This document shows, one piece after another, positions 3,919-12,268 of a DNA stretch of 12,268 nt. The translations under genes were made by a program, and so were the position numbers. The first letter of the stretch is position 1. Each line of letters starts with the position of its first letter. This stretch comes from a bacterium. Its GTDB lineage: Bacteria; CAIWAD01. The notes beneath the pieces were generated by a model. The model ran no database searches. It was given only the letters and a program-made list of their open reading frames with translations, and was not told where the DNA came from. The stretch covers positions 1-12,268 of the forward strand of contig JAUXWS010000097.1 in assembly GCA_030685015.1 (NCBI GenBank). Reading direction: 5' to 3'.

Positions 3919-4998
3919 TCATCTTCCTCTGACCAGGCGAAAATCCACTTCATAGCGCATGAAGCTGGCAGAAGGGACAGGCTTCAGCGCGTATTGCAGG
4001 CGATTGGTCTCCTCGCTGGCAATGATCAGACCCTCGACCTGCTCATCTACTGTCGCCAAATCGGTTTTCACCCATCCCATATAGCGCAGCAGCTGAGCCA
4101 CTGTCTGGTCATCAGCCTGCCACCGTTTCAGCTCTACAACCAGCCAGCGCGGCTCCGTCCTGTGCTTGGCCAGGAGATCTATGCGGCCAATGGGCGTGAT
4201 GCGCTCACTCCCTGCGCCGTCGACATTCCCCTCATCATCCTCAACGAGCGACCAGTCGCGACCCAACTCGGTCAGATGCCAGTTCTCCCGCAAGAAGAAA
4301 TGGAGGTGACGTTCCAGACCGAACGTGCCGGAGCATGTCGATGGTGGTGTCTCGATGGATCCTGTTCGCATGGTGTCCACTGGAAGATCTGTGCCGATTG
4401 TTTCTCCCATCTGCCACCATAGGCTGTCCAGGCACCACAAGTCAACATCCGCATCTCGCGAGAGCTCAAGCAGGAGTTCGTTGATGCGCCGATACCGCTC
4501 ACCCTTGCTTGTGCCTCGAGGCCATTCCGGCAACAAGCCAACCTGCCTCATCATTCCCTCAGACGTTGCATTCCAGACGCCATAGCGGTCTGGGTAGACA
4601 ATCATCAGGATAGGTGTGAGGACAGCCTTGCCAAGCCTGAGAATCCTTGGGCGACCGTTCGGCAGCAACGAATCAAGTCGCTCGGCGATGGGACGTGACT
4701 CATCCAGCAGTTCTCGGATGGCCGCGCGTAGTGCCGGCATGTCGGAAATGATGCTGCCGCCCAGTCGCTGCAATCCTTGCCAATGTTTGTTGTAGCGATA
4801 CCAGAGCAGGCGCAGGAACTGTTCGGCGGTGAGATTGGCCAAGCCTTCAGATTTGAAGTACGGTGCGAAGTACTCCCTTACCTCATGACCGGTCGCCTTC
4901 ATCGATTCAAGACGCCCACTCGTGCGCTCATTCTCAGCAATCCGCCTGAGTTGCTCGAGAGCCCTTGAATAAGCGGCAGGGATGAATGAATCGCTCAT
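3919..4998 (-). CDS. two-domain NucS-like PD-(D/E)XK nuclease
   Basis: Probable DNA endonuclease of 359 aa. The C-terminal third matches the NucS/DUF91 type of PD-(D/E)XK fold: Glu229 in a helix (FGLERHLHFFLRENW), Asp274 in GRIDLLAK, Glu289 and Lys291 in WLVVELKR, and the helix AQLLRYMGWV with Gln302. All expected active-site positions are present. The N-terminal about 200 residues form a separate alpha-helical domain, with RLGKAVLTPILMIVYPDRYGV (from 121) and the Trp-rich DLWCLDSLWWQMGE (186-199); I do not know its function. The ATG at 4998 has GAGGA (5005-5009) 6 nt upstream. The gene follows the MOSC gene on the same strand with a 43-nt gap. Base composition is distinctly lower: one sampled 60-base line (4021-4080) is 50% GC against about 70% in dnaE. 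This suggests horizontal acquisition. A restriction or defence role is plausible inference; no partner methylase or helicase is visible nearby. Confidence 0.8.
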   Translation of the reverse strand: MSDSFIPAAYSRALEQLRRIAENERTSGRLESMKATGHEVREYFAPYFKSEGLANLTAEQFLRLLWYRYNKHWQGLQRLGGSIISDMPALRAAIRELLDESRPIAERLDSLLPNGRPRILRLGKAVLTPILMIVYPDRYGVWNATSEGMMRQVGLLPEWPRGTSKGERYRRINELLLELSRDADVDLWCLDSLWWQMGETIGTDLPVDTMRTGSIETPPSTCSGTFGLERHLHFFLRENWHLTELGRDWSLVEDDEGNVDGAGSERITPIGRIDLLAKHRTEPRWLVVELKRWQADDQTVAQLLRYMGWVKTDLATVDEQVEGLIIASEETNRLQYALKPVPSASFMRYEVDFRLVRGR

Positions 4999-10636: not shown

Positions 10637-11701
10637 ATGGCGCTCTTCCGCCGCCAGCCAAGCCTGCTGCTATCCGCCCTGCTCCTGCTGGCGGCGGCGC
10701 CGGCCGGGGCCGCTCCCGCCCTCCTGCCCGTGGTGGCCTACATGCCGGAGACGGGGGCCATCGGCGGCGCCTGGCTGCAGTGGGTGACGCGGCAGGACAG
10801 CCTGGACCGCCCCGACCAGCTGGCGGCCTGGGCCACCCTCTGCGCCCGGGGACAGGCCGAGCTGGGCCTGCGTCCCGAGCTGTGGCGGGCGGGGGACCGC
10901 TTGAGCCTGCTGGGCGAACTGAGCTACCAGCACTGGCCGGCCTCCTGGCACGGCATCGGACCGGACAGTCCCTCCACCCCGGTGGACTTCACCGTGGAGC
11001 GCGTCAAGCTGGAGCTGCGCCTGCGGCGGCGCCTGACCGGGGACCTGTGGAGCGGCGTCCATGCCCTGGGCTCCCAGGAGAGCTTCACCAAGCATGATCC
11101 CGCCTTCGCCTTCGCGAACGATGACGGGCGGGACCTGGGGCTGGGCGCGGAGGTGGCCTGGGACATCCGTGACGACACGGTGTGGCCCGGCGCCGGCTGG
11201 TTGGCGGAGGGGCGTGCCCTGCGCCACGGCTCCTGGCTGGGCGGCCGCTGGGACTACTCGCGCTGGCAACTGGACCTGCGTCGCTACCAGCGTCACGGCC
11301 CCGGCGTGTTGGCCGTCCAGGCTGCGCTGGAGGGCCGCGGGGGCGCCCCCTCCTTCCGCACCCTGCCCCGCCTCGGCGAGTGGCTGCGCGCCGTGGAGGA
11401 CATGCGCTTCCAGGACCGCTGGGCAGCGGCGGCACGACTGGAGTGGCGCCAGGACCTGCCCTTCACCCTGCCCACCCGGCCGGGCCGCTGGCTGGCGGCG
11501 CGCTCCGGCTTCGTTTGCTTCGTGGAGGCGGGGCAGGTGGGGGCGCGGGGCTGCGACCTGGCGGCCGGCCCCTGGAAGTCGAGCCTGGGGCTGGGCGGGC
11601 GCTTCGCCCTCCTGCCCGGCGAGCGTCTCAACGCCCGCGCCGACCTCGCCTATGGGGCGGAGGGCGTGGCCTTGCGCATCAAAGTGGGGGAGGAGTTCTG
11701 A
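10637..11701 (+). CDS. D15/Omp85-type outer-membrane beta-barrel protein without POTRA domains
   Basis: A 354-aa probable outer-membrane protein of the bacterial surface antigen (D15, BamA C-terminal barrel) type. A signal peptide covers residues 1-26 (MALFRRQPS, then a Leu/Ala-rich core ending APAGA before AP). The body shows alternating-residue beta strands with aromatic girdles, plus VAWDIRDDTVWPGAGWLAEG (173-192), a hallmark of this barrel class. The last strands include FVCFVEAGQVG (292-302), SSLGLGGRFALLPGERLNA (315-333) and VALRIKVGEEF. The terminal Phe354 fits the C-terminal signal read by the BAM complex. The length leaves no room for POTRA domains, so it is not BamA itself. It could be a TamA/PatA-like or phospholipase-associated barrel; its function is unknown. 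The ATG at 10637 has GAGGA (10628-10632) 4 nt upstream and places the signal peptide at the N terminus. The gene ends 23 nt inside the converging DUF559 frame. Confidence 0.7.
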   Translation: MALFRRQPSLLLSALLLLAAAPAGAAPALLPVVAYMPETGAIGGAWLQWVTRQDSLDRPDQLAAWATLCARGQAELGLRPELWRAGDRLSLLGELSYQHWPASWHGIGPDSPSTPVDFTVERVKLELRLRRRLTGDLWSGVHALGSQESFTKHDPAFAFANDDGRDLGLGAEVAWDIRDDTVWPGAGWLAEGRALRHGSWLGGRWDYSRWQLDLRRYQRHGPGVLAVQAALEGRGGAPSFRTLPRLGEWLRAVEDMRFQDRWAAAARLEWRQDLPFTLPTRPGRWLAARSGFVCFVEAGQVGARGCDLAAGPWKSSLGLGGRFALLPGERLNARADLAYGAEGVALRIKVGEEF

Positions 11702-12113
11702 CTCCTTCCCCCTCCCAGGGGGAAGGCCGGGATGGGGGTTTGCGGAGCCGAGCATCGTTCGGATCCAGAGCGGCGCGGCAGATCTCGCCAAGCACCCATG
11801 CCAGCCTGTCGCTGACATCGTTGTTTTGGAACCTGATCACGCGCACTCCCTGCTGACTCAACCATGCGCTTCTTCTCTCATCCTGTGACTTGTCCACCTG
11901 ATGTTGCACCCCATCAAGTTCGATGGCAAGCCGGTGTTCTGCGCAATAGAAGTCCACGATGTATGGCCCCACAACATGTTGGCGTCTGAAGCGAAGGCCG
12001 TTCAATTGCTTTTTGCGGAGCATGCTCCATAAACATCGCTCGTAGCTTGTCATGTCGCGTCGCATGCGGCGAGCGTGTTGCGTCAGGCGTGGAGGGACTC
12101 GTTGGTACACCAT
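11679..12113 (-). CDS. DUF559 (Vsr-like) endonuclease-domain protein
   Basis: A 144-aa protein of the DUF559 family, related in fold to very-short-patch-repair endonucleases (PD-(D/E)XK-like). The family core is clear: MTSYERCLWSMLRKKQLNGL (21-40), RFRRQHVVGPYIVDFYCAEH (41-60, with the catalytic-type Asp54), RLAIELDGVQHQ (61-72, Glu65, Asp67) and RVIRFQNNDV (91-100). The C-terminal tail after residue 126 (PPSRPSPWEGEG) is translated from a copy of the palindromic repeat, so the frame reads through the repeat until a stop inside the convergent barrel gene. The start is uncertain: ATG at 12113 abuts the right-hand repeat, Met17 or Met21 are possible, and a further upstream ATG at 12179 lies wholly in the repeat. 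Base composition is low; line 12001-12060 counts 28 G+C of 60. Function is not established for the family; nicking or mobility-related cleavage is inference. Confidence 0.82.
   Translation of the reverse strand: MVYQRVPPRLTQHARRMRRDMTSYERCLWSMLRKKQLNGLRFRRQHVVGPYIVDFYCAEHRLAIELDGVQHQVDKSQDERRSAWLSQQGVRVIRFQNNDVSDRLAWVLGEICRAALDPNDARLRKPPSRPSPWEGEGVRTPPPL
11702..11740 (+). repeat. left copy of a 39-bp palindromic element, inverted relative to the right copy
   Basis: It contains the perfect hairpin ccttccccct (11704-11713), loop ccc, agggggaagg (11717-11726), followed by a cgggatgggggtt tail. The 39 bp match the reverse complement of 12115-12153 at 38 positions. The hairpin starts 2 nt after the barrel gene stop and may double as its terminator. 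On the minus strand it is inside the DUF559 reading frame. Confidence 0.85.
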
Positions 12114-12268
12114 GAACCCCCATCCCGACCTTCCCCCTGGGAGGGGGAAGGAGATTGCGCGGTCACCATGAACCCCCATCCCGACCTTCCCCCTGGGAGG
12201 GGGAAGGAGATTGCGCGGTCACCATGAACCCCCATCCCGACCTTCCCCCTGGGAGGGGGAAGGAGACT
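12108..12268. repeat. 56-bp tandem repeat array, at least 2.9 copies, open at the window edge
   Basis: Units start at 12108, 12164 and 12220, exactly 56 nt apart. The first two are identical by eye from the caccatgaac start to the gcgcggt end. The third runs to 12268 and differs at the second-last base visible (aggagact against aggagatt). Each unit has the hairpin ccttccccct-ggg-agggggaagg; in unit 1 it is at 12129-12151. The array continues beyond the window. Its unit is the same element, in opposite orientation, as the one at 11702-11740. Confidence 0.92.

Follow-up and report, generated by a model that had tools for sequence, protein, structure and literature searches.

DUF559 nuclease genes enclosed by inverted triplex-type repeats: a candidate two-part mobile system in bacteria

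A nuclease gene between inverted repeats

The window, that is, the whole stretch of 12,268 nt analysed here, ends in a short nuclease gene enclosed by inverted repeats. The features at this end are as follows.

11702..12153, no strand: whole nuclease-plus-repeats unit, 452 bp; the counterpart site is empty in the congener G002
11679..12113, minus strand: DUF559 (Vsr-like PD-(D/E)XK) nuclease ORF, 144 aa from the ATG at 12113; PF04480, E = 9e-38
11702..11740, minus strand: left triplex-type element; hairpin outward CCTTCCCCCTCCCAGGGGGAAGG (11704-11726), 3-nt linker, putative third strand GGATGGGGGT facing the gene
12115..12153, plus strand: right triplex-type element, inverted relative to the left one, putative third strand facing the gene
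12171..12209, plus strand: second tandem copy of the element, 56 bp beyond the right element
12227..12265, plus strand: third tandem copy, at the contig end

The two 39-nt arms (11702-11740 and 12115-12153) are mutually inverted and 97% complementary, with one mismatch, and each holds a perfect 10-bp stem (CCTTCCCCCT/AGGGGGAAGG) with a 3-nt loop. This recomputation agreed with an earlier note on this DNA, which had described 39-bp inverted copies with a single mismatch and a perfect 10-bp hairpin. The left element adjoins the stop codon of an Omp-like gene. The right side comprises three copies in a 56-bp tandem array (12108, 12164, 12220) that reaches the contig end, and four copies in all lie inside 600 bp at this locus. 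This array probably extends beyond the contig into C78, whose end, beside recN, has the same array. It interrupts the assembly (12108-12268, and L019 at the end of C78). Other direct pairs in the same genome were spaced by 50-57 bp, with differing intervening sequence (L005, L026, L029).

The gene between the arms is indeed a DUF559 gene, as the note had it, and the only one in this 3.6-Mb genome. The ATG at 12113, at the inner edge of the right element, is the probable start codon; a longer open frame begins at 12179. Over its last ~25 codons the reading frame crosses the left element and enters the Omp-like gene at its 3′ end, with the stop at 11679-11681; the claim that the C terminus is translated from the left repeat thus held. 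Among 91 such units from other genomes, with a median length of 451 bp, the ORF extended into the 3′ element in 56. The GC content between the arms was 57%, compared with 68% for the window, and fell within the lowest ~4% of same-sized windows. The low GC of the gene was therefore also confirmed, although a gene at 3919-4998 with a NucS C-terminal-like nuclease domain had the same GC (57%) as the DUF559 gene. Possibly, this NucS-like gene was also acquired.

DUF559 genes are very common, and to our knowledge no role has been agreed for the family. The AlphaFold model of the window protein (pLDDT 80) showed a predicted nuclease fold. It was most similar to 3HRL, a Neisseria DUF559 protein (Z = 16.0), followed by the I-Bth0305I domain (Z = 13.1) and Vsr (1cw0, Z = 10.7). 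A sequence match was found with 3r3p (I-Bth0305I; E = 2.1e-4), and the PADLOC 'homing endonuclease' model also matched (E = 5e-5). Residues E25, D54, E65, D67 and H71 are present and conserved, all of them invariant except D54. The window protein thus models as a Vsr/I-Bth0305I-type (EDxHD) PD-(D/E)XK nuclease, sharing with these enzymes the fold and the conserved acidic and histidine residues.

Architecture of the repeat element

On its G-rich strand the element consists of a Y-arm, a loop, an R-arm, a 3-nt linker and a putative third strand. In the alignment of copies from the same genome, a conserved head AACCCCCATCCCGR precedes a hairpin CCTTCCCCC...GGGGGAAGG. Purine-motif triads (G on G-C, A or T on A-T) were scored between the third strand and the R-arm, and the window element gave 10 of 10 at the 3-nt linker. 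The description of the element as palindromic in the earlier note stands for the hairpin, but a palindrome alone does not account for it, since the conserved head appears compatible with a triplex third strand.

Perfect third strands at exactly the 3-nt linker were found on 110 of 231 gene-facing sides versus 8 of 232 outer sides; other linker lengths were rare, and in some elements a small hairpin replaces the linker. The stem and the third strand covary: 100 of 152 combinations were perfect, compared with a mean of 22.6 and a maximum of 36 after permutation. This control matters because purine-rich composition makes partial triad matches common. The co-changing pairs of stem and third strand were GGGAGAGGG with GGGTGAGGG, GGGGGAAGG with GGATGGGGG, GGGGGAGGG with GGGTGGGGG and CGGGAGGGG with GGGGAGGGC. 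Nothing in Rfam matched the window, and a known RNA family was rejected as the identity of the element.

Copies in the same genome were counted by pattern searches. The palindrome occurred 43 times, versus none for the reversed control. Because of these counts, and of the four copies inside 600 bp, the inverted arms are not a chance finding. Most of the copies were singles and direct pairs. About 21 of 37 element copies lay within one longer repeated context (GACGAGGCCGAAAAC...TGGGGCA before and GGTGAAGGCC after; L002-L031), and part of the copy number therefore stems from a larger repeat.

BoxC/TM repeats, which form triplexes, were already known in the 1990s; they occur in hundreds of genomes and are linked to genome instability. 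We know of no prior candidate for their means of spread. Judged by its architecture, the present element is a predicted purine-motif intrastrand-triplex unit of this BoxC/PIT/TM class: a pyrimidine/purine hairpin is followed by a third strand obeying purine-motif triads, and the element is dispersed in many copies. The earlier note had not placed it in this class. The BoxC/PIT/TM motif was reported in more than 260 genomes and associated with instability (Holder et al. 2015, PMC4666352), and the likeness lies in the C-rich hairpin plus third strand, the many intergenic copies and the many genomes. Triplex formation has been reported for the E. coli TM motif (PMC4666352), the window variant being known from sequence alone. 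E. coli TM is of the CCCTCACCC...CCCTCTCCC type, which is common among the DUF559 loci studied here. E. coli K-12 has 23 TM copies (PMC4666352), and its DUF559 gene is ycjD. The two cases differ in that most loci studied here have a DUF559 gene bracketed by inverted copies, whereas Holder et al. never found mobility genes beside the motif and named no partner (PMC4666352).

Recurrence of the arrangement and empty sites

We compiled 80 DUF559 loci of many phyla from a scan of GTDB species, picked by the protein alone, and searched them for an enclosing inverted repeat (score of at least 14, within 350 nt). Such a repeat was present in 60 of the 80 loci, compared with 9 of 846 offset positions in the same loci. 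A second set was picked by HMM from 281 evenly drawn Gammaproteobacteria, where 46 of 61 DUF559 loci were enclosed versus 6 of 279 offset controls. Chance and GC-rich low complexity are ruled out by these same-locus controls together with the reversed-pattern control. In the same genomes only 1 of 30 Vsr genes was enclosed, by a repeat that is not a triplex element; bracketing is thus not a general trait of Vsr-like nucleases, and the DUF559 genes differ in this from those of Vsr. About a quarter of the DUF559 loci had no detectable inverted flanks. The idea that other DUF559 genes carry inverted flanks was therefore borne out for most of them, and DUF559 genes elsewhere do not generally lack such flanks; such a lack, with the element at hundreds of intergenic sites, was what the earlier note had named as contrary to its reading.

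The triplex-type units were 37-fold denser beside DUF559 than more than 1 kb away, with 68 of them head-inward and 20 outward. The stem type was identical on both sides in 91 of 109 units, where 38 were expected. On the nuclease tree the stem type changed 31 times, compared with 44.9 times after shuffling. This signal is only moderate, and a strict lock-and-key specificity of the nuclease for the stem type is not supported. The frequent changes of stem type would count against a system of nuclease plus triplex repeat. In loci from a plasmid collection, elements were found beside DUF559 genes of Sphingomonas (between sufB and sufC), Deinococcus, Azospirillum, Sinorhizobium, Synechocystis and Neisseria. 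Other genomes also had gene-less dimers in head-to-head arrangement (L245-L251), whose spacers varied little in length (27-33 nt) but were unrelated in sequence. One locus (L124, G306:C5) had two DUF559 units ~1.2 kb apart and 46% identical, each with its own inverted elements.

At the genome level we searched for the pattern CCCYCAYCCNNNCCYTCYCCC. Some stem types and the hairpin-linker form escape it, and zero counts are thus not absences. The pattern was present in 35 of 38 DUF559 genomes, at up to 267 copies, and the reversed control gave none. Among the 281 Gammaproteobacteria, 37 of 61 genomes with a strong DUF559 hit had the pattern compared with 41 of 220 others (OR = 6.7, P = 8e-10), and 18 of 61 versus 9 of 220 had at least 10 copies, both comparisons being uncorrected for phylogeny and GC. 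The presence of Vsr was also mildly associated with the repeat (OR = 3.7 at one or more copies; 1.9 and not significant at 10 or more), and the genome-level association is therefore partly unspecific.

Two sites were informative about the gain or loss of the unit. The congener G002 has recN and the Omp-like gene side by side in convergent orientation, with stop codons 9 bp apart and no DUF559 at the site. In the genome of the window, the unit and the array lie between these two genes, and the last codons of recN are made of the element; this recN-Omp join was inferred from the shared array and from synteny, because the recN side is on C78. The C terminus of recN is lengthened by translation of the element (...SPSPSQGEGRDGGSW; L209, 3205-3299). 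Conversely, the single DUF559 gene of G002 lies elsewhere, between inverted copies of another palindrome variant that has the same head CCCCCATC, again pointing inward; its unit takes up 506 nt, measured from the stop of one gene to the start of a helicase gene. This site has no DUF559 in three relatives: the two genes are separated by 12 nt in G003 and by ~100 nt in G000, and they overlap in G004. Reciprocally empty in this way, the two sites show that the unit has been gained or lost within a single genus. The three empty relatives favour a gain in G002, while empty sites as such show presence or absence rather than direction. The two congeneric nucleases were only 44% identical. Given the different sites and this divergence, vertical inheritance of one locus was rejected; the relatives thus have the empty sites that the earlier note had expected of a mobile unit, and not the vertically conserved locus that it had named as contrary.

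Other loci also bear on mobility. The GC content of DUF559 was below that of its flanks in 72 of 80 loci. In genome G068, near-identical DUF559 copies occurred at three places, and the proteins of two copies shared 98% identity. Its units (L134, L138, L140) lie inside ~80-nt terminal repeats that start with CAAAGGTATC and are accompanied by 9-bp target duplications (GTGCAGATT; GTTTGTAAC). The outer ends of these repeats recur elsewhere without DUF559, and the outer terminal repeat may belong to another transposon. The 9-bp duplications were found in the G068 copies only; no general target-site duplication, of the fixed length that marks a classical DNA transposon, was found, and none was evident at the window's own site compared with G002. 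In E. coli the ycjD site between fabI and sapF (L121, L192, L193) varies in presence and absence, and the flanking triplex-type elements are decayed or outward. It was rejected as a clean empty site, as the eefRABCD efflux operon occupies it in other E. coli phylogroups (PMC12817139). For S. meliloti, a same-site comparison matched the whole region in one strain only.

How the nuclease and the repeat might be linked

Because the pairing recurs across many bacterial phyla, the DUF559 nuclease stands out as a strong candidate for the partner, missing so far, by which these repeats spread. We lean, by a small measure, towards a two-part selfish system of nuclease and triplex repeat, in which the nuclease would act on the structure-prone ends of the unit that encodes it and also, in trans, on solo copies. 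The autonomous form would be the ~450-bp unit, a short Vsr-like (DUF559) gene between two inverted elements with their third strands facing the gene. The non-autonomous forms would be the copies dispersed through the same genomes singly, in tandem or head to head. Once single-stranded, as happens in replication, the elements might extrude as a hairpin or triplex. The nuclease would then recognise the extruded structure or an adjacent site and nick or cut there, and the break would receive a copy of the element, or of the entire nuclease unit, through host repair or replication. What the loci show is an association that is specific, recurrent and polar, along with units present or absent at precise sites; that the nuclease recognises and cuts, and that copying occurs in trans, is what we infer.

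The system works, in our best reading, like REPIN-RAYT without being a member of it. In both, the repeats are short palindromes that carry an unpaired head and occur singly or as inverted dimers, and inverted copies flank an enzyme gene; the gene-less inverted dimers here came from other genomes. The analogy drawn in the earlier note therefore stands as far as the anatomy is concerned, a gene within inverted copies, but extends neither to the enzyme nor to the tag. RAYT is an HUH Y1 tyrosine transposase, whereas the gene enclosed here encodes a predicted PD-(D/E)XK protein of the DUF559 family. REP sequences there are GTAG-tagged (classes GTAG and CGTC, PMC3733652), whereas the head here is AACCCCCATCCCGR, which would fit a triplex third strand. 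If the proposal is true, a second and chemically different enzyme class would have entered this type of partnership, acting on triplex-prone sequence.

It is also conceivable, though we think it unlikely, that the elements spread otherwise, by replication slippage or another transposase, and that the bracketed DUF559 gene is tolerated or benefiting cargo, inert on the elements. Of the 220 Gammaproteobacteria lacking a strong DUF559 hit, nine had at least 10 exact copies, and eight of the nine had no hit at all. The G068 units within longer terminal repeats, whose outer ends occur without DUF559, would fit this explanation. So would units that are direct repeats or have outward heads, as at E. 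coli ycjD and in Neisseria gonorrhoeae, where the two triplex-like units on either side of the 3HRL-matching DUF559 gene are direct rather than inverted (L038). However, among the genes tested the bracket was specific to DUF559, with 1-2% in offset controls and 1 of 30 for Vsr. Moreover, it recurs in many phyla around diverged nucleases, mostly with inward polarity and matched stem types.

A free-standing homing endonuclease of the I-Bth0305I type seems similarly doubtful. Such an enzyme would cut an unoccupied intergenic site, and repair from the occupied copy would install the unit; the repeats would be short homology arms or would shield the occupied site from cutting. The I-Bth0305I domain is the closest solved relative after 3HRL, the PADLOC match points the same way, and the empty sites are intergenic. 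Homing, however, requires allelic flanks, yet the congeneric units are at unrelated sites, and dozens of gene-less solo elements would be left unexplained. I-Bth0305I has been described as a mobile-intron protein, whereas the DUF559 gene of the window stands in an intergenic unit, where Rfam gave no intron match. Least probable, and in our view improbable, is a role in repair: a resident nuclease, Vsr-like or structure-specific, would resolve triplex-forming repeats or mismatches to protect the genome and would be retained where repeats are many. DUF559 and the repeats do co-occur in genomes, and the DUF559-containing VsrA of Caulobacter has DNA-damage effects in vivo in a pathway tied to a cytosine methyltransferase (PMC12907096), but the inverted bracket of the gene, its low GC and its presence or absence at precise sites would be left unexplained.

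We found no link of DUF559 to repeats in the titles and abstracts of the listed open-access papers that mention DUF559, no mention of palindromes in the study of Caulobacter VsrA (PMC12907096), and nothing relevant in the open-access literature that connects Vsr or a nuclease with REP or MITE. An earlier notice of the link is possible, because subscription journals and preprints lie outside the scope of this search.

If the two-part system is real, DUF559 nucleases might be dedicated mobilisers of BoxC/triplex repeats across bacteria, and BoxC of E. coli, perhaps also elements of the RIME type, would be non-autonomous debris. We offer this wider proposal tentatively, at slightly less than even confidence. 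If true, it would reveal a widespread class of nuclease-driven, structure-recognising mobile DNA. Linking BoxC/TM repeats with DUF559 gives each of them an explanation that can be tested in laboratory strains, E. coli K-12 having both. In S. meliloti the inverted elements on either side of the DUF559 gene are bipartite, 114 nt long and made of two such hairpins; we take them to resemble the rhizobial RIME-type intergenic mosaic elements.
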